Below, piece after piece: positions 1-32,847 of a DNA stretch of 36,771 bases. The notes beneath the pieces were generated by a model. It made no database searches. It was not told where the DNA came from and was given only the letters and a program-made list of their open reading frames with translations. The DNA is from an alpha proteobacterium MED-G10 (GTDB lineage Bacteria; Pseudomonadota; Alphaproteobacteria; Methylaequorales; Methylaequoraceae): positions 1-36,771 of the forward strand of contig NTKR01000007.1 of assembly GCA_002457065.1 (NCBI GenBank), given 5' to 3'. The stretch's first letter is position 1, and every line of letters starts with the position of its first letter. Made by a program: the position numbers and the translations under genes.

Positions 1-78
1 GAATATTTAGAGTGTTTAATATCTACGGATGGGAAAGATTGTAAGATTTATTATACACAAATGAGAATTGTAGATTAA
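1..78 (+). CDS. C-terminal end of an unidentified protein (partial)
   Basis: An open frame enters from the left edge in frame 1 and ends at the TAA at 76-78, giving 25 residues that finish KIYYTQMRIVD. Its stop codon overlaps the recJ stop by 4 bp, tail to tail, which is the pattern of the other convergent pairs in this window and is the main reason to believe it is a real gene end. The visible residues (hydrophilic, two Cys) do not let me name a family. It could be a chance open frame, since only 25 codons are visible. Confidence 0.45.
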   Translation, partial: EYLECLISTDGKDCKIYYTQMRIVD

Positions 79-1841
79 CTTTTGATAATATCTTCAATTT
101 GAACTTGTATTGTTCTTTCTCCTCCCCAGAAGTTATCCTTTAGGGTAACAACGATATCTACAATTTCACCAGAAAAATCCTGAAAGAAATTTCCCATATC
201 TTCGTTCACCGTATTAAATGCTATTCCTTTAATCTTGTTTCCAAAAGCATCCGTAATAACTGTAGAGTGATGATTATCTCCAACTATTTTCACAAAACTT
301 AGATTGCAATCTTTAATAAGAAATCGTGGTTTAGTGTTACCCGGACCGAAAGGCGAAAGCTTAGCAATTTCATCAAATAATTTTATATCAATCCCTGAAA
401 TATTTAATGCACAATCATAAAACTTTTCAATATGAAAATTTCCTTTGTCAAATTTATCAACTAAAAAATCTCTGAATTTTTTTATGTTTTTTTTATATAT
501 GGAAAATCCACCAGCCATCTTATGTCCACCCCCTGAAATCAGGATACCTTGACCTACAGCTTTAACAATTAACTCTCCTATATCAAAATTATAAACTGAT
601 CTACAGGATGCTTTACAAACTTCCTCTTCTTCAGAAATAACAATTGAAGGTCTATTAAATTTTTCAGTTAATTTACTAGCAACTATTCCAATTACTCCGG
701 GATGCCAATTAAGTGAACTTACACAAATTATTTTGTTATCATCGTTTACTTTTTGAAGTGCCTGGAATTGAACTTTCTTTTCAATATTTTTTCTCATATT
801 GTTATATTCACCAAGCTTAAGGGCCATTACATTAGCAAGATTTTTTTCATTGCACAATAATAGCTCAGTACCGAGTGATGATTTCCCAACTCGACCACCC
901 GCATTAATTCTAGGACCTATAATAAAACCTAAATGATAATCAGTAATCTCATTTTCAATTCCAGCCTCAGTAACTATTGATGATATACCTAAATTGGAAG
1001 AAGAGCTAATAATTTTCAGACCTTGTTTTACAAAAGTTCTATTTATTTTATCTAGTTTAACAACATCGCAAATCGTTCCAAGAGCTACTAGGTCAAGATA
1101 ATTAATTAAATTTGGAGGGTCAGATTTAAAAAATTTTTTCTCACGCAAACTTCTATTTAATGATATCAAAAGAAAAAAAGTCACACCAGCAGCACACAGA
1201 TTTTTTAAATTAGATGAATCTTTTTTTTTATTTGGATTTACAACTGCGTAAGCATCAGGAAGTATTTCACCTTCTTTATGATGGTCAATTACAATTATTT
1301 CAACTCCTTTATTTCTTATAAATCTTATTTCCTCAAAAGCAGTTGTTCCGCAGTCCAACGTAATTATAAGTTTACAACCACTTTCAAACATTTTTTCAAA
1401 CGCACCAATACTTGGACCGTATCCTTCACTTTGTCTATCTGGAATATAAAACTCATAATCAACTCCAATTTGTTTAAAATATTTACTTAAAAGTGCAGTT
1501 GAAGTAGAACCATCCACATCATAGTCACCAAAAATACCAATTTTCTTTTTTTGCGTAATAAAATCGATAATTTTTTCGGTAGCACGTTCCATATCACTCA
1601 AAACAAAAGGGTCAGGAATTACATTTTTTATCCTCGGATTAAGATAGTTTTCAAGGTTTGTTGGATCAACATCTCTCGATGCTAGAAGTTTGGATAAAAC
1701 TGGATTAAGTTTTTTATTTAATAGAACCATTTCATTTGAAACGTCATATTTTTTTTCTACCCAAATTTGGTTTTTAACAGATATAGTTTTTTTAAATTTA
1801 TTTTTTAATTGTTCTTGATCAAATTTAGTTTTAATCTGCAT
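75..1841 (-). CDS. recJ: Single-stranded-DNA-specific exonuclease RecJ
   Basis: RecJ is a 5'-3' exonuclease on single-stranded DNA, acting in recombinational repair and mismatch repair. The 588-residue protein has the DHH-superfamily layout: GDYDVDG at about 105-111, DHH at 186-188, the NAGGRVGKSSLG region at 313-324, and the DHHA1-type GGGHKMAGG motif at 437-445. The Asp and His residues of these motifs bind the catalytic metals. Length is normal for proteobacterial RecJ. ATG start at 1841; the start is 24 bp from the divergent pfp start, so any recJ promoter must lie in or beside the 5' end of pfp. In many alphaproteobacteria recJ sits in a hom-glpX-recJ cluster. Here hom and recJ keep that strand and order but glpX is missing between them. 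Confidence 0.96.
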   Translation of the reverse strand: MQIKTKFDQEQLKNKFKKTISVKNQIWVEKKYDVSNEMVLLNKKLNPVLSKLLASRDVDPTNLENYLNPRIKNVIPDPFVLSDMERATEKIIDFITQKKKIGIFGDYDVDGSTSTALLSKYFKQIGVDYEFYIPDRQSEGYGPSIGAFEKMFESGCKLIITLDCGTTAFEEIRFIRNKGVEIIVIDHHKEGEILPDAYAVVNPNKKKDSSNLKNLCAAGVTFFLLISLNRSLREKKFFKSDPPNLINYLDLVALGTICDVVKLDKINRTFVKQGLKIISSSSNLGISSIVTEAGIENEITDYHLGFIIGPRINAGGRVGKSSLGTELLLCNEKNLANVMALKLGEYNNMRKNIEKKVQFQALQKVNDDNKIICVSSLNWHPGVIGIVASKLTEKFNRPSIVISEEEEVCKASCRSVYNFDIGELIVKAVGQGILISGGGHKMAGGFSIYKKNIKKFRDFLVDKFDKGNFHIEKFYDCALNISGIDIKLFDEIAKLSPFGPGNTKPRFLIKDCNLSFVKIVGDNHHSTVITDAFGNKIKGIAFNTVNEDMGNFFQDFSGEIVDIVVTLKDNFWGGERTIQVQIEDIIKS

Positions 1842-1865
1842 AAAAAAAATCTACCATGATTATCA

Positions 1866-3059
1866 ATGTTTAAAAATAAGAATATTTTAATTGCTCAAGG
1901 AGGCGGCCCTACAAACGTAATTAATATGTCGTTGGTTTCAATTTTAGAGCAGGAGAAAAAATTAGGCTCAAATGTTATTGGTTCACTTAATGGCGTAAAT
2001 GGAATCATTAACAATCGTTTTACAAACCTCAACAAAGTTTCAAGTTCCGATCTTAAATTGATCGCACAAACACCTGGTGCTGCACTTGGCTCGACTAGGG
2101 ACAAACCTGATGCAAAATACTGTTTTGAAATATTAGAAGTTTTAAAGAAAAAAAAAATTGATAAATTTTATTACATTGGTGGAAATGACTCGTCTGATAG
2201 TCTTAGAATAATTTCAGAGTATGCTAAAGATAGCAACTTCAACTTACAATGTATTCATATTCCAAAAACAATTGATAATGATTTAGTATCCAATGATCAT
2301 ACACCTGGTTTTGGTTCAGCCGCTAAGTATGTTGCACAACTATTCTCAGGTATTAATTATGATGTAAAATCTCTTCCTGGTGTTTATATTGGAGTAGTAA
2401 TGGGAAGACATGCAGGTTTTCTGACAGCAGCATCATCTTTACTTAGAAAAACAAAAAGTGATGGACCACATCTAATTTATATACCTGAAGTATCATTTTC
2501 TTTTGACAAACTCCTAAGTGATATAAAAAAATGTTACTCAAAGTATAGAAGAGTTATAGTCGCAGTTTCAGAAGGTATTCAAGATGATAAAAAAAAATTA
2601 ATTTCACAAACAATTAAAAAAAAAAGTGAATTTGATGCTCATGGTAACATTCAATTGTCTGGCACAGGTTCACTCGGTGATTATCTATCAGATAAAATAA
2701 AAATTAATTTAAAATTGTCTAGGGTAAGAGCAGATACTCTAGGTTACCCCCAAAGGTCATTTCTGGGTTCAACTTCAGAAGTCGACCAAAGGGAAGCTTA
2801 CAATATTGGAAATTTTGCTGTAAAAAGCTCTAACAAAGTAAATTTTTCTTTTTCAGCGGGAATGAAAGAAAGAGTAAATTTAAATAACAATTATAAAATT
2901 GAATTTAAAATTAATACTTTAACTGATGTTGCAGGTAAGACAAAAGTTATGACAAAAGAGTATTATGACTTAAAGGCTAGCAATATTACAAAAAAATTCA
3001 TCAATTATGCATATCCATTAATAGGAAAAAAATTAATTGATACGAAATCACTTATTTAA
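1866..3059 (+). CDS. pfp: Pyrophosphate-dependent 6-phosphofructokinase
   Basis: Interconverts fructose 6-phosphate and fructose 1,6-bisphosphate. In the PPi-linked family the phosphate donor is pyrophosphate and the reaction is reversible. The 397-residue protein carries the PFK-A fold motifs: GGGPTNVIN at 12-20, GGNDSSDS at 105-112, PKTIDND at 133-139 and MGRHAGF at 179-185. Two residues separate donors in this family. Asp rather than Gly follows the GGN (D108), and Lys rather than Gly stands in PKTIDND (K134). Both are the PPi-type choices, since they block the ATP alpha-phosphate site. The gene is on the strand opposite its neighbours. It starts 24 bp from recJ and its last 8 bp overlap the end of hom. 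PPi use is inferred from residues only. Confidence 0.9.
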   Translation: MFKNKNILIAQGGGPTNVINMSLVSILEQEKKLGSNVIGSLNGVNGIINNRFTNLNKVSSSDLKLIAQTPGAALGSTRDKPDAKYCFEILEVLKKKKIDKFYYIGGNDSSDSLRIISEYAKDSNFNLQCIHIPKTIDNDLVSNDHTPGFGSAAKYVAQLFSGINYDVKSLPGVYIGVVMGRHAGFLTAASSLLRKTKSDGPHLIYIPEVSFSFDKLLSDIKKCYSKYRRVIVAVSEGIQDDKKKLISQTIKKKSEFDAHGNIQLSGTGSLGDYLSDKIKINLKLSRVRADTLGYPQRSFLGSTSEVDQREAYNIGNFAVKSSNKVNFSFSAGMKERVNLNNNYKIEFKINTLTDVAGKTKVMTKEYYDLKASNITKKFINYAYPLIGKKLIDTKSLI

Positions 3060-4335
3060 AATTTTCTATTCTCAAGGAAACTGTTTTTCTTATTACATTT
3101 TTGAGCGAATTAATTTTTTTTAAAGCATTAACTATTTCCTTTTCATAACAATTGTGAGTTGTCATTATTATTGTAGCGTTTCTTGAGCCGGGCTCTCGAT
3201 CTCTTTGAAGCATTGATTTCATAGAGATATTGTTTTTCTTAAATTCTTTTGTAATATCTGAAATTACACCAGATTTATCGATAGTTGAAAATCTAAGATA
3301 GTAGCCTCCAAATCTTTCACTAAGCTTCAAGTTTTTATGTTTAATTATTTTTTGATTTAAATTAAAGTCATTAGTATCTTTTTTACTAATAGAAATGAGA
3401 TCACTTACAACTGAGGTTGCGGTTGGATATGCTCCAGCTCCCTCTCCCTGTAAAAAACTCTTTTTACAAAAATCAGATTCAATCACTACACCATTATAAA
3501 CACCATCAACACTAGCTATAATATCATTCTGATTAACCAGACATGGGTAAACGCTACATAATAAATTATTTGATTTAAAATAAGTTACGGCAAGTAATTT
3601 AATTTTATAACCAAGCTCATAAGAATATTTTAAGTCTACTAAATCAATTCCTCTAATACCTTCAATTGATATTTTTTTTAAATTACAGTTAATATTAAAC
3701 GCTAAAGAAGCTAATATTGACAACTTATGAGCTGTATCAACTCCATCAATATCAAACGATGGGTCGGCTTCAGCAAATCCTAAATCTTGTGCTTTTTTTA
3801 GAATTTTCTCAAAAGTGAGACTTTTTGATAACATATCAGTTAAAATAAAGTTTGATGTACCATTCAAAATGCCATAAATCTTAGAAATCTTATTTGAAGA
3901 TAAAAACTCCTGAATTATTTTTATTATCGGGACACCACCTGCAACTGCAGCTTCAAACTTTATTGAAGAATTATTTTGATTACATATCCTCTTTATTTCA
4001 ACCCAGTGTTTAGAAATTAAAGCCTTATTAGCAGTTATAACCCTTTTACTTTTTGACAAGGCATTAAAAACAATTTCTTTTGCTATACCTTCCTCTCCAC
4101 CGATCAACTCTATCAAAACGTCAAAGTCATTGAAACTTAGAAGACTTTTTGCATCTTTAAAGATTTTTGTATTTTTTAATTTTATATTATTCCTACGAAT
4201 TTTTCTTCTACTTGCAATTGCTACAATAGAAATGTTGTATTTTTCTATAACTTTATTTTTTAATAACAAATCAAGAACGCCGTTACCAACAGTGCCTACT
4301 CCAGCAATAGCAATCTTAATTGAATGCTGGGACAC
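3052..4335 (-). CDS. hom: Homoserine dehydrogenase
   Basis: Reduces aspartate semialdehyde to homoserine, the branch point to threonine and methionine. The 427-residue protein begins with a Rossmann dinucleotide site (GVGTVGNG at 12-19). It continues with the homoserine dehydrogenase catalytic domain, including the ANKALISKHW region. It ends with an ACT domain from about residue 345 (YYLRFSTIDKSGVISDITK), the usual allosteric site for threonine feedback. Start codon is GTG (4333-4335), directly upstream of the Ser-Gln-His leader before the Rossmann strand. The stop overlaps the stop of the convergent pfp gene by 8 bp. The lipoprotein gene upstream ends 4 bp before this start, so the two are probably cotranscribed. 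metY elsewhere in the window uses a product of this pathway. Confidence 0.95.
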   Translation of the reverse strand: MSQHSIKIAIAGVGTVGNGVLDLLLKNKVIEKYNISIVAIASRRKIRRNNIKLKNTKIFKDAKSLLSFNDFDVLIELIGGEEGIAKEIVFNALSKSKRVITANKALISKHWVEIKRICNQNNSSIKFEAAVAGGVPIIKIIQEFLSSNKISKIYGILNGTSNFILTDMLSKSLTFEKILKKAQDLGFAEADPSFDIDGVDTAHKLSILASLAFNINCNLKKISIEGIRGIDLVDLKYSYELGYKIKLLAVTYFKSNNLLCSVYPCLVNQNDIIASVDGVYNGVVIESDFCKKSFLQGEGAGAYPTATSVVSDLISISKKDTNDFNLNQKIIKHKNLKLSERFGGYYLRFSTIDKSGVISDITKEFKKNNISMKSMLQRDREPGSRNATIIMTTHNCYEKEIVNALKKINSLKNVIRKTVSLRIENFK

Positions 4336-11519: not shown

Positions 11520-11996
11520 ATGATTAAAATAACAACAAAAAAAATTTTTTCACTACTTATTCTTATTTGCCTAAATTCGTGTATTGGTCAAAAAGAAATC
11601 CATGGTAATTTACCTGAGGCTCAACTTGTTTCACTTTTAAAAATTGGTAAGGATACAAAAAAAACGGTATCTCAGATATTAGGTCAACCAACTTTCTTTG
11701 GAGCTTTTGGAGATAATTCCTTTTATTATGTTGGAACAGTAAATTCAAAGGTAGCTTTTTTAGATCCTAAAGTTAACGAACAATATATATTAGAATTAAA
11801 TTTTGATAAATCAGATCTCTTAAAAAAAGTTTACATTTATGACAAAAAGCAGTCTATGAATGTGGCAATGTCGAGTCTTGAGACTAAAACATCTGGAAGC
11901 AAAGAAACTTTCTTACAGCAACTTATTAGAAATTTTGGTGTTCCAGGTATGGGTAAAGGAGGACCAATTATCGGAAGTGGAAAAGCTGACGATTAA
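11520..11996 (+). CDS. bamE: Outer membrane assembly lipoprotein BamE (SmpA/OmlA)
   Basis: Lipoprotein of the BAM complex that helps insert outer-membrane beta-barrels. I start it at the ATG at 11520 because a signal peptide begins there. It has a basic N-terminus, the hydrophobic stretch [10 protein letters not shown], and a lipobox LNSC with the lipidated Cys at 21; an upstream ATG at 11475 would spoil this signal. The mature part has the BamE pattern: [20 protein letters not shown], then [21 protein letters not shown], then VAFLDPKV. It continues into the alphaproteobacterial extension with [12 protein letters not shown]. No Shine-Dalgarno sequence precedes the start. The end overlaps the convergent hppA by 4 bp. 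Confidence 0.92.
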
Positions 11997-14095
11997 GCCA
12001 GCATTGATAATAATAAAATTGATACAATGTTTATGATTTTAATCATTGGGTTGATAGCTGGTCCAGCAGTATCTTTATAAGGGTCACCGACAGTATCACC
12101 TGTTACTGCAGCTTTGTGCGCATCAGAATTTTTTCCACCATAATTTCCGTCCTCGATGTATTTTTTTGCATTATCCCAAGCTCCCCCACCTGATGTCATA
12201 GAAATTGCAACAAATAACCCAGTTACAATTGTACCTAATAACATCGCTCCAAGGGCTGTAAACGCTGCTGTTGCTTTTCCTGAAATAAAGTAGATAGCAT
12301 AGTATGTGATAAAAGGCGCTAATACTGGCAGAAGAGATGGCACTATCATTGCGTAAATTGCTCCTTTGGTAAGAATATCCACCGCTTTACCATATTCAGG
12401 TTTTGATCTTCCTGTCATTATTCCTTTGTTTTCTTTAAACTGTCTTCTTACTTCATTAACAATTTTAGTTGCGGTTTTACCAACAGCGGTCATACCCATT
12501 GAACCAAATAAGTAAGGTAACATTCCCCCTAATAATAAGCCTACTACAACATAAGGGTCATCTAAAGAAAATTTTACATCCAAGTCTGGAAAATAATATT
12601 TTAGATCTTGAGTGTAGGCTCCAAATAAAACTAAAGAGGCGAGTCCAGCTGAACCAATTGCATAACCTTTAGTTACTGCTTTTGTAGTATTGCCAACAGC
12701 ATCGAGTGCATCTGTAGTTTTTCTGACACTTTCTGGTAAATTTGACATCTCTGCTATTCCACCAGCATTATCAGTCACTGGACCATAAGCATCTAATGCA
12801 ACAATCATCCCAGCAAGAGCTAACATTGTAGTTGCAGCAATTGATATCCCATATAGACCAGCAAATTTGTAGGAAAATACAATCCCAAGGATAATTACAA
12901 TAGTTGGAAGTGCAGTTGATTGCATAGATACAGCAAGCCCCTGAATTATATTTGTTGCATGGCCTGATTGGGAAGAATTTGCCACAGATTTGACAGGAGC
13001 AAATTCAGTACTTGTGTAATATTCTGTAATCCAAACAATAAATCCTGTTACCGTCAAGCCAACTAATGAACAGTAAAAAAGATCAATACCTGAAAAAGAT
13101 TCTATGAAGTAGTCATCATTAATTATGACTTTATCAAGCCCTATGAAAAATTCAGTCACGAAATATATAAAAACAACGGATGCAAGTGCTGTTATGATAA
13201 GACCTTTATACAATGCACCCATAATATTTTTGGATTCTCCAAGTTTCACGTAGAATGAGCCAATCAAGGAAGAGATAATACAAACACCAGCAATCAATAG
13301 TGGATACATCATAAATACCTGTTGATCTACTCCTGAGTTTTGAAATAATATCAAACCTAGAACCATAGTTCCTACAATCGTTACCGCATATGTCTCGAAC
13401 AAGTCGGCAGCCATACCAGCACAATCTCCAACATTATCTCCTACATTGTCAGCTATTACTGCTGGATTTCTTGGATCATCTTCAGGAATTCCCGCTTCAA
13501 TTTTACCAACCAAATCAGCTCCAACGTCTGCTCCTTTAGTAAAAATACCTCCGCCTAGTCTAGCAAATATTGATATTAAAGAAGCACCAAAACTTAGTGC
13601 AACCATTGCCTCCACAATTTCTCTTCCGTTAGCTTCTCCAAGGTAAAAATTCAAATACCAATAATAACTTATTAAACCCAGTAATCCTAAACCAACTACT
13701 AAAAATCCTGTTATTGCTCCTGATTTAAAAGATATATCGAGCGCTTTATCGATGCTTTCTGTTGCTGCCTGAGTAGTCCTGACGTTAGCTCTCACCGAAA
13801 CAAACATTCCAATATAGCCCGCTAGGCCTGATAGGAAGGCCCCGATTATAAAACCAATAGAAACAAAAGTATTTTCCATAAGGTAAAAAAGCAAAATTGC
13901 TATAAGTATGCCAACTATAGAAATAGTAATATATTGTCTGTTTAAATAAGCTTGTGCCCCTTCTTGAATAGCTAATGCAATTTCTTTCATCTTATCAGAA
14001 CCGTCAGGAGCTTGAAGTATTTGATTAATGGTGTAGCCACCGTAAATCAGAGATAATAAGGAACATATAAAAACAATTAGGTATTCTAGGAACAT
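11993..14095 (-). CDS. hppA: K+-independent membrane H+-translocating pyrophosphatase
   Basis: Integral membrane pump that couples PPi hydrolysis to proton export. The 700-residue protein is hydrophobic, with about 15-16 helices. It has the family's substrate loops: [37 protein letters not shown] around 188-223, with its Asp cluster, and [10 protein letters not shown] around 441-450. [19 protein letters not shown] at about 468-486 carries Lys472 and Thr475 where K+-dependent enzymes have Ala and Gly/Ala, so this is the K+-independent H+ type. ATG at 14095. The 58-nt gap after thiL could hold its own promoter. The stop overlaps bamE by 4 bp. With pfp in the same window it points to pyrophosphate as an energy currency. 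Confidence 0.97.
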
Positions 14096-19219: not shown

Positions 19220-20503
19220 TTAGATTACAGCACTATAAATTGGAAACTTGTCGCAAAGATTTTTAACTTTAACTTTAACTTCGTTTTCGATTGCTGAATT
19301 ATCATCAGGATTTTTAGATAACCCATCAAGCACATCACCAATAAGATTACCAATCAATCTAAATTCATCTTCTCCAAACCCTCTACTTGTACCAGCAGGA
19401 GATCCTAACCTAATTCCAGATGTAACAAAAGGACTCTCAGGGTCAAAAGGCACTCCATTTTTATTACAAGTTATTCCTGCATTTTCTAGAGATCTTTCTG
19501 CAGCCTTACCTGTAAGTTTTTTTGGTCTTAAATCAACTAGTACCAGGTGTGTATCTGTGCCCCCAGAAACCACTGCTAAACCTCTTTCTAACATCACGTC
19601 AGACAAGATCTTGGAGTTATTAATAACGGAGTTGATATAATTTTTAAAATTCGGCTTCAACGCCTCACCAAAAGCTACAGCTTTAGCACAAATTACGTGC
19701 ATTAAAGGGCCACCTTGTAGACCTGGAAATACAGCTGAATTTATTTTTTTTGCGTGATCAGCATTATTTGTCAAAACTATCCCTCCCCTTGGTCCGCGAA
19801 GCGTTTTATGTGTAGTGGATGTTACAACATCAGCATATTCAAGTGGGTTAGGATAAAAACCAGTTGCTACTAAACCAGCAAAGTGAGCCATATCAACCAG
19901 GAGTAGTGCACCAACTTTATCTGCTATCTCTTTGAATTTTTTAAAGTCTATTATCCTTGGATATGCCGATCCACCAGCAATAACAAGCTTTGGTTTGTGC
20001 TCAAGTGCAAGATTTTCAACCTCATCATAATCAATTAAAGCGGTGTCTTCTTTAACACCATATTGAACAGCATTAAACCATTTGCCTGATTCGTTAGGGG
20101 GTGCACCATGGGTAAGGTGCCCACCAGCAGCCAGTGACATACCCATAATAGTATCACCAGGCTTTAGAAGAGCTAGAAATACTGCCTGATTTGCTTGCGA
20201 TCCAGAATGAACTTGGACATTTGCAAAGTCAGCACTAAAAAGCTTTTTTATCCTATCAATACATAAGTCCTCAACAACATCAACGTGTTCGCATCCACCG
20301 TAATATCTTTTACCAGAATAACCCTCGGCATATTTATTAGTAAGTATTGTACCCTGTGCTTCAAGAACTGCTTTTGAAACAATGTTCTCTGAAGCTATCA
20401 ACTCAATTTGGTCATTTTGTCTGTGGTACTCCTTCTCGATAGCTTCGAGAATAGTTGGATCTGTTTGTGTTAAGCTACTTTCAAAAAATGTTTGTCCTGT
20501 CAT
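19220..20503 (-). CDS. glyA: Serine hydroxymethyltransferase
   Basis: PLP enzyme interconverting serine and glycine with tetrahydrofolate as one-carbon carrier. The 427-residue sequence is strongly conserved: [17 protein letters not shown] near the start, [20 protein letters not shown] and [13 protein letters not shown] with the PLP Lys at 233. It is one of the least AT-skewed proteins here, as expected of a highly expressed enzyme. A strong Shine-Dalgarno (AAGGGAG, minus strand, 20516-20510) lies 6 nt before the ATG and overlaps the rpiB stop. It links to the serine-glyoxylate module at 29327-32847 through glycine and serine. Confidence 0.98.
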
Positions 20504-29326: not shown

Positions 29327-30553
29327 ATGTCTAGAACACATCCAGGTAGATTTCATATAGCAATTCCAGGTCCTACTAACATACCTGAAAGAATTTTAAA
29401 CGCTATGCATATATCATCAGAAGACCAAAGGAACCCAGAAATTCCAAATTTAACAATCCCACTTTATAAAGATGTTAAAAAAGTCTTTAAATCTGAAAAG
29501 GGAACTGTTTTTCTTTTTCCAGGTTCAGGAACGGGTGCGTGGGAGTCTGCGATCATAAATACAATGTCTCCCGGGGAAAAGGTTTTAATTTATAGATATG
29601 GTCAATTTAGTCATTTGTGGGCAGATATGTTCAAAAGGCTAGGATTAGATACACAGATGGTTGAAAGGGAATGGGGAACAGGAACTCCCCCAGAGGAAGT
29701 AGAAAAAACGCTTAAGGCAGATACCGACCACAAAATCAAAGTAGTTTGTGTAACACAAAATGAAACTGCTACAGGTGTGACATCACATGTTGAGGACGTA
29801 AGAAAAGCAATTGACGCTGCAAATCATCCTGCTCTTTTATTTGTTGACGGTGTTAGTTCTATAGCTTCAATTGATTTTAGAATGGATGAATGGAAAGTTG
29901 ATTGTGCAATTTCAGGATCTCAAAAAGGTTTTATGTTGCCTTCTGGAATGGCAATCATGTGTGTAAGTGAAAAGGCTCTTGAAGCCCATAAAAAAGCTGA
30001 GCTTAAAAGATGCTATTATTCTTGGGAAGATCAAATAGCCACGAATAAAGATGGCTATTTCCCGTACACGCCGCAAATTCCAATGCTAAGAGCCTTGCAA
30101 GAATCGTGTAATATGATTTTTGAAGAAGGTCTAGAAAATGTATTTCAAAGACATCACAGAATTGCAGAAGGAGTAAGAAAAGCTATTACAGAAGGCTGGG
30201 AATTGAAACTGTGTGCTAAAGATCCATATTGGTATTCTGATACAGTGTCAGCAATAGTTGTTCCTGAAGGTAAAGATGCAAAAGAAGTACTCGCAACAGC
30301 TTTCAAGAAATATCATCTTTCACTTGGTGCAGGTCTTACTGAAGTTGCTGGAAAAGTTTTTAGAATAGGTCATTTAGGAGATCTTAACGAGCTTCAAGCA
30401 TCAGCTTTTATCAATGGAGCTGAAATGGCAATGATTGATTCAGGTATTAATGTAAAACCTGGAAGTGGTGTTGCTGCTGCTTCTGAATATTGGAGAAAGG
30501 CCTTAGAAAATGACGGAAAAGTTCAAAATATTAGTAACAAGGAAGTGGCCTAA
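29327..30553 (+). CDS. Class V aminotransferase, probable serine-glyoxylate transaminase
   Basis: PLP enzyme, 408 residues, of the serine/alanine-glyoxylate class: HIAIPGPTNIPERI near the start, FLFPGSGTGAWESA (63-76), VTQNETATGVTS (142-153), LLFVDGVSSIASI and the PLP Lys200 in SGSQKGFMLPSG. The likely reaction is serine plus glyoxylate to hydroxypyruvate plus glycine. Support comes from the next two genes, which would reduce hydroxypyruvate and phosphorylate glycerate. The related aspartate-glyoxylate transaminase BhcA is an alternative, but its partner genes bhcB, bhcC and bhcD are not here. The end overlaps the reductase by 44 bp. Strong AGGAG ribosome site. Confidence 0.88.
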   Translation: MSRTHPGRFHIAIPGPTNIPERILNAMHISSEDQRNPEIPNLTIPLYKDVKKVFKSEKGTVFLFPGSGTGAWESAIINTMSPGEKVLIYRYGQFSHLWADMFKRLGLDTQMVEREWGTGTPPEEVEKTLKADTDHKIKVVCVTQNETATGVTSHVEDVRKAIDAANHPALLFVDGVSSIASIDFRMDEWKVDCAISGSQKGFMLPSGMAIMCVSEKALEAHKKAELKRCYYSWEDQIATNKDGYFPYTPQIPMLRALQESCNMIFEEGLENVFQRHHRIAEGVRKAITEGWELKLCAKDPYWYSDTVSAIVVPEGKDAKEVLATAFKKYHLSLGAGLTEVAGKVFRIGHLGDLNELQASAFINGAEMAMIDSGINVKPGSGVAAASEYWRKALENDGKVQNISNKEVA

Positions 30554-31484
30554 AAAAGTTGAGGAGAAATTACTATCAACATTTGACACAACATTAAACG
30601 TTGAAGACAAGCCACTATCTGAAGCTGAACTTATAGAGGGAATGAGGTCATATGATGCACTGCTACCCACAGTGACAGATCCGATTACTGATAAGATAAT
30701 TTCAACGCAAGATAGAAAAGTTAAAATTATTGGAAATTTTGGTGTTGGATTTAATAACATAGATATTGATTCTGCTAAAAATAATAAAGTTGTTGTTACT
30801 AATACGCCAGAGGTTCTCACAGATTGTACTGCTGACATCGCGATGCTTCTGATGTTAGGAGTTGCAAGGCGCGGTTCGGAGGGTGAGTTTCATGTTAGGA
30901 AAAAAGAATGGTCTGGATGGAGGCCCACACATATGATGGGCACAAAAGTTACCGGCAAAACTTTAGGTTTAATTGGTATGGGAAGAATAGCCCAAGCTAT
31001 GGCGCATAAGTCTCACTTTGGATTTAATATGAAAATCATTTTTTTTGACCCTTACTTTGATAACGCTGAGGTAATTAAAAAATTTGGAGCAACCAAGTTA
31101 AGTTCTATTGATGAGGTTTTATCTCAAGCTGATTTTGTTTCTTTACACTGCCCATCAACTAAAGAGACAAAAGGATTAATAAATAAAGAAACAATTTCTA
31201 AAATGAAAAATTCAGCTTATTTAATTAATACCGCAAGAGGTGATATCGTTAATGAAAGTGAATTAGTCGAAGCGCTAAAAGAAGAGAGAATTATGGGAGC
31301 TGGCTTAGATGTATATGAAAAAGAACCATCAGTTGAAAAAGATCTTATATCTTTAAAAAACGTTTTTCTCCTTCCACATCTAGGCAGTGCAACCAACGAA
31401 ACTAGAGAGGCGATGGGTATGAGAGTTTTTGATAATATATCAGCATTTTTCAATAATAAAGAGCCGTTAGATAGAGTTGTTTAA
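30510..31484 (+). CDS. D-2-hydroxyacid dehydrogenase, probable hydroxypyruvate/glyoxylate reductase
   Basis: NAD(P)H-dependent reduction of hydroxypyruvate to D-glycerate, or of glyoxylate to glycolate. The 324 residues have the family layout: substrate-domain start KILVTRKWPKKVEEKL, GNFGVGFNNID (76-86), the nucleotide fold LGLIGMGRIAQAMA (152-165), and the catalytic Arg243 in NTARGDIVNE, Glu272 in YEKEPS and His290 in LPHLGSATNETR. The segment KEWSGWRPTHMMG is typical of glyoxylate/hydroxypyruvate reductases. The 44-bp overlap with the aminotransferase is needed, since the first beta strand begins at residue 5. Confidence 0.92.
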   Translation: MTEKFKILVTRKWPKKVEEKLLSTFDTTLNVEDKPLSEAELIEGMRSYDALLPTVTDPITDKIISTQDRKVKIIGNFGVGFNNIDIDSAKNNKVVVTNTPEVLTDCTADIAMLLMLGVARRGSEGEFHVRKKEWSGWRPTHMMGTKVTGKTLGLIGMGRIAQAMAHKSHFGFNMKIIFFDPYFDNAEVIKKFGATKLSSIDEVLSQADFVSLHCPSTKETKGLINKETISKMKNSAYLINTARGDIVNESELVEALKEERIMGAGLDVYEKEPSVEKDLISLKNVFLLPHLGSATNETREAMGMRVFDNISAFFNNKEPLDRVV

Positions 31485-32847
31485 TAATGTTCAAAAAAAA
31501 TCTCGGTCTAGTAAAAAAGAGATATCTGAGCAACTCTTAGATTTATTTAAAATTGGTGTTTTTGGTGTCCAGCCCAAAAATATTCTGGATTCCTATTTAA
31601 AAGTAATTAAAAAACAAATTATTGTCAAAAAAAGTACCTCCAAAAAAAAGGTTTACTCTAATGTAAATAAAATATTTCCTATCTGTATTGGAAAAGCTTC
31701 CGTGGATATGGCTAAAAAAGTAAAGGAAATTTTTAAAAATTCTGATTTGAAAATTGAAAAGGGAGTAGTAATTGTTAATAAAGAAAATTTCAAAAAGATT
31801 TCCGGATTTAAATGTTTTTCATCAAACCATCCTGTACCTGATAAAAAGGGATTTGAAGCGACAAACTATCTTAGAAACTATCTTAGTAACTTAAATGCAA
31901 ATGATTTAGTTTTGGTATTTATTTCTGGTGGTGGTTCGGCATTAGCTCCACTTCCTGTGGATCAGATCAATCTCAAAGATAAAGTGTTAGTAAATAAAAT
32001 CTTACTAGAATGCGGGGCAAATATAAAAGAAATAAACGCCGTTAGAAAGCACTTATCTAAAATAAAGGGAGGAAATTTATGCAAAATTTGTTTTCCAGCC
32101 TATATCCAAAGTTTTATTTTATCGGATGTAATAGGCGATGATTTAAGTTCCATAGCAAGTGGAATGACAACATATGACGAAACAACATTTAGTGATGTCC
32201 AAAATATATTAAAAAAATATAGGGTATGGAAGAAAATTCCAACCAAAGTTCAAAATTTTATTAAGTTAGGAGAAAAGAATAAAGAACTAGAGACTCCTAA
32301 AAAAAATGACGTTTTTTTTAAGAAAACAAACAACATACTTATAGGTAGTAATAATTTATGTCTCGAAAAGATTCAGAAATATTGTGAATCCTCAAAAATT
32401 AGTTCAAAAATCTGGATCAGGAATATTGAAGGTGATGTTAGAAAAGTTACAAAAGACTTGGCTAGAAAAATTAAAAACATAAAAATTAAACGACCAATTA
32501 TTCTTATCTCAGGAGGTGAAACCACAGTAAAAGTCAAAGGGAGTGGTAAAGGTGGACGTAATCAAGAGTTTGGACTCTACTTTTGTAAGGAAATGAAAAT
32601 TCAGAATCCTAATCAAAAGTTTTATATTCTATCTGCTGGTACTGATGGAAGAGATGGTCCAACAAATTCAGCGGGAGCAATTTTAAGTCATTCATCACTT
32701 ACTGACATTTCTAAAAATAAAATAAATTTATCAAAGGAGCTTAAAAATAATAACTCATATGAAGTCTTGAAAAAAATTAAATCACTTGTAATAATTGATG
32801 GAACAAACACTAATGTAGCTGATGTGCAACTTATTTATTTATCGTAG
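31477..32847 (+). CDS. Glycerate 2-kinase (GckA/MOFRL family)
   Basis: ATP-dependent phosphorylation of glycerate to 2-phosphoglycerate, closing the route from glyoxylate and serine to central metabolism. The 456 residues carry a DUF4147 domain with FISGGGSALAPLP around 147-159 and NAVRKHLSKIKGGNL around 188-202. A C-terminal MOFRL domain follows, with ISGGETTVKVKGSGKGGRNQEF and SAGTDGRDGPTNSAGA. The start is unclear. The open frame begins with TTG at 31477, inside the end of the reductase gene. A better placed ATG at 31487 is one frame off and leads into an A8 run (31493-31500); adding one A would join it to this frame. The first 15 or so residues are not conserved. Confidence 0.9.
   Translation: MFNNVQKKSRSSKKEISEQLLDLFKIGVFGVQPKNILDSYLKVIKKQIIVKKSTSKKKVYSNVNKIFPICIGKASVDMAKKVKEIFKNSDLKIEKGVVIVNKENFKKISGFKCFSSNHPVPDKKGFEATNYLRNYLSNLNANDLVLVFISGGGSALAPLPVDQINLKDKVLVNKILLECGANIKEINAVRKHLSKIKGGNLCKICFPAYIQSFILSDVIGDDLSSIASGMTTYDETTFSDVQNILKKYRVWKKIPTKVQNFIKLGEKNKELETPKKNDVFFKKTNNILIGSNNLCLEKIQKYCESSKISSKIWIRNIEGDVRKVTKDLARKIKNIKIKRPIILISGGETTVKVKGSGKGGRNQEFGLYFCKEMKIQNPNQKFYILSAGTDGRDGPTNSAGAILSHSSLTDISKNKINLSKELKNNNSYEVLKKIKSLVIIDGTNTNVADVQLIYLS

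Follow-up and report, generated by a model that had tools for sequence, protein, structure and literature searches.

A pyrophosphate-dependent phosphofructokinase lies inverted in the glpX position of a marine methylotroph order and has probably replaced the fructose bisphosphatase step

The window analysed here is a stretch of 36,771 nucleotides of contig NTKR01000007.1 from the alpha proteobacterium MED-G10 (assembly GCA_002457065.1). It opens with genes encoding the single-stranded-DNA exonuclease RecJ, a pyrophosphate (PPi)-dependent 6-phosphofructokinase (PFP) and homoserine dehydrogenase (Hom), the second of which, pfp, occupies the position held in many alphaproteobacteria by glpX, a fructose-1,6-bisphosphatase (FBPase) gene. 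The features of the locus are as follows.

75-1841, minus strand: recJ, single-stranded-DNA exonuclease (TIGR00644, 526.7 bits, above cut-off)
1842-1865: divergent recJ-pfp gap of 24 bp, from the open-frame positions
1866-3059, plus strand: pfp, PPi-dependent 6-phosphofructokinase of 397 amino acids, in the glpX position (NF010675, 410.4 bits, above cut-off)
2187-2189, plus strand: codon for D108 in the motif GGND, a PPi signature (meaning from passages of PMC12203962)
2265-2267, plus strand: codon for K134 in the motif PKTIDND, PPi-compatible but not diagnostic (meaning from passages of PMC12203962)
3052-4335, minus strand: hom, homoserine dehydrogenase (NF004976, 445.9 bits, above the cut-off of its best family)

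The original prediction, made from the sequence of the window, described hom and recJ as keeping their order and strand with pfp inverted between them, and both the open frames and the NCBIfam names agree; the 24-bp recJ-pfp gap and the 8-bp overlap of the pfp and hom 3′ ends (3052-3059) were likewise measured as claimed. With pfp opposed to the hom-recJ strand there is hardly any space for separate promoters. If hom and recJ are carried on one transcript, it would read antisense through pfp in the manner of a non-contiguous operon, an arrangement with which the layout is compatible. A promoter search returned 20 sites where shuffled sequence gave an expectation of 15.1, which is nothing reportable, and on the plus strand from 1500 to 2179, the recJ-pfp gap included, it listed no promoter-like site.

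The window genome (994,412 bases, 78% complete) belongs to a family, termed f1 here, that was sampled as 32 genomes from 12 genera and is the sole family sampled in the order TMED127/Methylaequorales. Passages of PMC12542740 describe this order as one family of 12 genera, with the single cell AG-892-F10 as reference, and its members as marine, obligate methylotrophs using the serine cycle. A first placement in HIMB59/AEGEAN-169, suggested by low GC and the names of single-cell genomes, was rejected because AG-892-F10, TMED13 and MED657 are assigned to TMED127 in that paper. Of the 27 f1 genomes with pfp, all 25 whose contig is long enough have it adjoining recJ on the opposite strand, and all 27 have hom on its other side, an extra gene being interposed in three; because the recJ-pfp-hom layout is kept across these genomes, it is not a product of chance. 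The recJ-pfp gap measures 20-28 bp in 20 of 24 f1 loci, the others being 36, 37 and 64 bp and one misread; gap measurements leave out, on the affected side, Hom of L039, RecJ of L051 and PFP of L047, L048 and L050. The extra gene, found in G001, G016 and G005 on the hom strand (L032:6211-7866, L033:6191-7822 and L034:6200-7861), encodes 543-553 amino acids, with a methyltransferase domain in both copies searched (L032 and L033).

The pfp product is a member of NF010675 (PRK14072; diphosphate--fructose-6-phosphate 1-phosphotransferase), its 410.4 bits lying over the cut-off of 273. The closest solved chains in the PDB, 3hno_A (E 1.1e-45) and 3k2q_A (E 5e-44), are deposited as PPi-dependent phosphofructokinases, and their signature motifs align with those of the window protein; they are its nearest solved relatives by sequence yet distant ones, compared by sequence alone. 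Solved PPi-dependent phosphofructokinases (PPi-PFKs) from Nitrosospira multiformis and Marinobacter aquaeolei are covered in passages of PMC12203962. In the window protein an Asp replaces the last Gly of GGDG, giving GGND. The extended motif GGNDS occurs in all 24 f1 PFPs examined and in 73 of 77 other sequences of the same type (the remaining four gave no motif match), whereas 13 other alphaproteobacterial phosphofructokinases (PFKs) carry GGDGS (12) or GGNGS (1). Both D108 and K134 had been put forward as indicators of PPi as donor. Both residues are present, and D108 is informative, the Asp at this position being tied to PPi use in passages of PMC12203962; K134 does not carry the same weight, as a Lys of this type alone is no indicator of PPi use according to the same passages, and it stands alongside GGDG in 11 of the 13 other PFKs. 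That mixed signature of GGDG with PKTIDND was seen among L029, L030, L136-L139 and L163-L169, and three genomes with such other PFKs (G036, G043 and G050) have no glpX match either. The window PFP is therefore predicted to use PPi, and to do so reversibly. Three PPi-PFKs assayed in both directions, including those of Methylosinus and Methylobacterium nodulans, were 3- to 13-fold more efficient from fructose 1,6-bisphosphate (FBP) to fructose 6-phosphate (F6P), and the two named enzymes had near-equal kcat both ways with kcat/KM favouring FBP (passages of PMC12203962).

The whole-genome check for glpX, fbp and other PFKs suggested with the original prediction came out in its favour. No glpX (PF03320) was matched in any of the 32 f1 genomes, the window genome included, in a search that did match Caulobacter and others of its controls (8 of 14). 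Class I FBPase (PF00316) gave no match above cut-off in the 32 genomes, the single lower one being in G013 (19.3 bits, cut-off 34.8). PFK family PF00365 was found at one place each in 26 of the 32, always this pfp, and a protein search recovered pfp in 27 of the 32 as the only PFK-family gene found. All five genomes without pfp also lack recJ, which makes a gap in assembly at the locus the likeliest cause. Mean completeness being 78%, about 7 of the 32 genomes are expected to be without any universal gene, and if the genomes are treated as independent, the log10 probability of glpX missing from all 32 through incompleteness alone is about -23. Across 385 genomes of the class, NF010675 was above cut-off in 23, of which 17 have no glpX match, against 100 of the 362 others; without the five f1 genomes the figure is 12 of 18. 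The association (Fisher p 1e-5, or 9e-4 without f1) is overstated, as kinship is uncorrected.

A second enzyme of PPi metabolism is encoded further along the window.

11993-14095, minus strand: hppA, membrane ion-pumping pyrophosphatase (PF03030, 884.4 bits; TIGR01104, 880.3 bits, above cut-off)

The best NCBIfam name for hppA says sodium-translocating; the protein carries the motif GNTTKA, which we take to mark the K+-independent H+ type. hppA is present in 23 of the 32 f1 genomes, including all five with completeness of 90% or more and contamination of 5% or less. Its distance from pfp is 8.8-10.8 kb in 19 of the 22 genomes with both genes, that is, in all 19 same-contig cases. The other three have their main hppA match on another contig, and in one of these, G008, the pfp contig terminates in an hppA fragment. 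The closeness of the two genes may reflect inherited synteny.

The gene content, the signature residues and the conserved position together suggest that PFP has probably replaced the FBPase step in a former glpX slot, with its PPi feeding the pump. Serine-cycle carbon would arrive as phosphoglycerate and would have to go up gluconeogenesis to supply hexose and pentose. The products of pgk and gap and a class I aldolase would make FBP, which PFP would convert with phosphate (Pi) by the reaction FBP + Pi -> F6P + PPi; the nearby membrane pyrophosphatase would hold PPi low, drive the FBP-to-F6P direction and store the bond energy as an ion gradient. Candidate genes for the entry of carbon lie in the same window.

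19220-20503, minus strand: glyA, serine hydroxymethyltransferase of the serine cycle (NF000586, 636 bits)
29327-30553, plus strand: class V aminotransferase, BhcA-like (NF045640, 553.9 bits, below the cut-off of 650; PF00266)
30510-31484, plus strand: 2-hydroxyacid dehydrogenase (family profile matches)
31477-32847, plus strand: glycerate 2-kinase family, MOFRL (NF040791, 239 bits, below the cut-off of 670; PF05161)

Judging from its neighbours, the aminotransferase is probably a serine-glyoxylate aminotransferase and the dehydrogenase probably a hydroxypyruvate reductase, and the glycerate 2-kinase would yield 2-phosphoglycerate entering gluconeogenesis. We infer the placing of these three in the serine cycle, which fits the described lifestyle of the order. 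For the next steps, G003, a congener of the window genome, has a tkt-pgk-class I fba-rpe cluster and a separate gap. Its class I aldolase (PF00274) scores 426.7 bits; 660 kb of G017 and the leading 766 kb of G003 were searched for this gene without a match. Class II aldolase as a source of FBP was set aside, with no full-length match in the 32 f1 genomes and, within long frames, three short matches (21.1, 25.7 and 27.0 bits), of which two narrowly exceed the cut-off of 25.5. The gap of G003 (G003:C2; L269:18987-19988, L270:1-2328) is followed by a small frame and then by thiE-like, efp-like and inositol-monophosphatase (IMPase)-family genes, thiE and efp being named by eye; many alphaproteobacteria have pgk and fba in the stretch from gap to thiE, and in G003 they are elsewhere, with tkt and rpe. 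On G017:C1 (L243:13628-17990), fae lies near a second glyceraldehyde-3-phosphate dehydrogenase (GAPDH)-like frame, recognised by motif and followed by a major facilitator superfamily (MFS) transporter, a pair that by eye resembles the arsJ arsenate pair.

Transaldolase (PF00923) was found in one of the 32 f1 genomes, G008, which has a listed contamination of 4%. Because transaldolase is missing elsewhere, we propose that PFP probably also interconverts sedoheptulose 1,7-bisphosphate (SBP) and sedoheptulose 7-phosphate (S7P) by the reaction SBP + Pi -> S7P + PPi, for the making of pentoses; near-complete absence of transaldolase with an aldolase present (G003) is the gene pattern of an SBP pathway. 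The same lack of transaldolase in 31 of 32 genomes would also suit a PFP devoted mainly to the SBP route of pentose metabolism, with the FBP/F6P step dispensed with in net synthesis. We consider this highly improbable: growth on one-carbon (C1) compounds only would still need hexose phosphates for the envelope, for which mur-like genes were seen by eye in G017, and the searches of the 32 genomes for FBPase of class I (above cut-off) and class II came up empty.

Several observations weigh against a PFP that has taken over the FBPase step and feeds the pump. The class I aldolase was found in one genome only, and the pgk frame of the same genome spans profile positions 109-378 of 379, about the last 70%. 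No operon is shared by pfp and hppA, which in the window lie about 9 kb apart with many genes between. The link between this PFP and loss of glpX is far from strict: 6 of the 23 class genomes with the PFP keep glpX, and the 100 of 362 genomes without it that also lack glpX amount to 28%. Three single-cell genomes of genus g8 (G017, G030 and G028; loci L047, L048 and L050), of which the reference AG-892-F10 is one, carry a TAA in frame at codon 30 of pfp, where a long run of A begins; in other members of g8 this codon is GAA or GAG. The codons downstream look selected, 63 of the codon differences being synonymous and 29 nonsynonymous (L047-L050); homopolymer sequencing error, recoding or a real lesion may each be the cause, and gene callers may have split the gene. 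Finally, the absence of FBPase covers classes I and II, with class III, class V and IMPase-type FBPases and PfkB-type kinases not searched, and the IMPase-family gene that adjoins the efp-like gene in G003 (PF00459) may be relevant here. Another phosphatase, for example of the inositol-monophosphatase type (class IV), could carry out the FBPase step and leave PFP mainly as a glycolytic enzyme or PPi sink; PPi-PFKs are reversible, so glycolytic use is conceivable, and an FBPase of type IV had at one time been suggested in Nitrosospira (passages of PMC5960693). We regard this as unlikely. An obligate serine-cycle methylotroph would have little need of net glycolysis, PFP stands in the glpX slot wherever the f1 locus is visible, and the IMPase-family match in G003 is weak, at 46 bits. 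Genes of the suhB-like kind, moreover, are near universal.

Replacement by PFP of glpX itself, rather than of its function alone, is suggested by the position of the gene. Among 18 glpX-bearing genomes sampled as relatives, all outside f1 and each represented by its best locus, the complete order hom-glpX-recJ occurs at 14 of 18 loci; with 28 further loci, the top-scoring matches, it occurs at 41 of 46, a set that is not random. The claim that this arrangement is common among alphaproteobacteria thus stands, and the proposed comparison of the hom-recJ interval across relatives finds pfp in f1 and glpX in most outside loci.

Trees were built from hand-picked subsets of 76, 61 (with 15 of the 24 f1 loci), 34, 47 and 60 rows, leaving out the PFPs of L228 and L161 as too short. 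In the Hom+RecJ tree of 61 rows, which is unrooted and without an outgroup and has many rows of odd composition, f1 forms one clade (support 100) joined to G056, a genome with glpX in place (Shimodaira-Hasegawa-like approximate likelihood ratio test 90). A second family, f59, has the same inverted layout: G210 reads recJ-pfp-hom, G089 the same with a pfp-hom spacing of 1.6 kb, and the contig of G381 carries the recJ side only; none of these three genomes has a glpX match. f59 lies away from f1, within another clade of glpX-in-place genomes (96), and by parsimony over 60 rows two changes are enough for f1 and f59 (with f15 scored as glpX in place). After f1 and f59, f130 is the third family with pfp at the locus, here beside hom with recJ elsewhere; f130 has a very long branch and was left out of the topology tests and parsimony. 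In f15 (G354 and G177; L230 and L231) the order is hom-glpX-recJ-pfp, all on one strand with both enzymes retained, a side-by-side arrangement that is a possible intermediate.

Because glpX is usual at the locus, pfp is there in f1 and f1 stands beside a glpX-in-place genome on the tree, an in-place swap from glpX to pfp would be the simplest reading, and the functional replacement that the original prediction raised gains support from gene content and the Hom+RecJ tree. The direction of the swap is itself an inference, because the tree is unrooted, row composition is odd and TMED127 is called deep-branching (passages of PMC12542740). The same deep branching and lack of an outgroup would suit a history in which pfp was ancestral at the interval, or came as a laterally acquired cassette, with no in-place replacement in this lineage, as would the shared recJ-pfp-hom order of f59. 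A single clade of f1 and f59 is neither shown nor rejected: forcing them together costs 10 log-likelihood units on Hom+RecJ (34 rows; approximately unbiased test, p-AU 0.084) and 1 unit on PFP (47 rows; p-AU 0.456). We find such a history rather doubtful, given glpX in the interval at most glpX loci, the separate glpX-in-place neighbours of f1 and f59 with two swaps enough, and the PFP tree of 47 rows, in which the f59 PFPs group with those of other alphaproteobacteria (f5, f43, f50, f3 and f73; 86/87) and not with f1. Independent swaps in f1 and f59 are accordingly favoured on these trees, though unproved, and the cassette may instead have moved laterally.

The widest form of the proposal is that the whole order makes all its hexose via one PPi-PFK, without FBPase and almost without transaldolase, so that a single enzyme would serve in gluconeogenesis, in the pentose phosphate route and in recovering the energy of PPi, after an in-place swap that also took place a second time, independently, in f59. 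We put this forward tentatively, as a combination that falls a little short of an even call.

Parts of this scheme are known from other bacteria. A PPi-PFK and a proton-pumping pyrophosphatase standing in for FBPase and sedoheptulose bisphosphatase have been described in sulfur-oxidising symbionts, strain Hiromi 1, Methylococcus capsulatus and Nitrosospira (passages of PMC4287430, PMC4136832 and PMC5960693), and for the M. capsulatus enzyme both FBP and SBP activities were shown (passages of PMC4287430 and PMC5960693). These organisms and f1 have in common the lack of FBPase genes, one PPi-PFK that is reversible, or in f1 predicted to be so, and a membrane pyrophosphatase that recovers, or in f1 would recover, the energy of PPi. 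In the published cases the module is discussed for the Calvin cycle and pfp is often co-encoded with hppA, whereas f1 belongs to an order described as using the serine cycle, its hppA is about 9 kb away, and its pfp takes the glpX place of hom-glpX-recJ in reverse orientation. Strain OB3b is, like f1, an alphaproteobacterial C1 user with a reversible PFP and no transaldolase, but its gene table includes fructose 1,6-bisphosphatase II, whereas neither class I nor class II was found in f1 (passages of PMC3615186 and PMC12203962). Cellulolytic clostridia have an SBP pathway with PPi-PFK and aldolase in place of transaldolase (abstract of PMC7029132); the missing transaldolase and the enzyme pair are alike, but the clostridial pathway serves pentose metabolism in sugar fermenters, whereas the flow in f1 would be biosynthetic.

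The replacement of phosphatases by PPi-PFK and pyrophosphatase is thus already known in sulfur symbionts, ammonia oxidisers and methanotrophs, and what is new here is that the lineage uses the serine cycle and that the swap is in place and inverted, as is also seen in f59. A PFP replacement was not found for TMED127 in the literature: the main text of PMC12542740 nowhere mentions phosphofructokinase, pfp or fructose, and the main texts naming TMED127 and that of the clade X paper (PMC11996626) are without phosphofructokinase. Nor was a glpX-to-pfp swap at hom-recJ found among the listed titles and abstract openings of open-licence PMC papers, although no search was worded on hom and recJ.

With no class I or II FBPase found, one PFK and C1 growth by the serine cycle, the order offers a clean gluconeogenic case beside earlier ones that concern the Calvin cycle, and it suits a test of an open question posed in passages of the review PMC12203962. 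In the TMED127 pathway that PMC12542740 sets out in its main text, the PFP step would fill a gap, and the locus, with its swap in place and in reverse orientation, lends itself to comparative study of gene replacement. If the proposed role is true, bond energy that a phosphatase would waste would be kept as PPi in abundant ocean bacteria thought to live on methanol.

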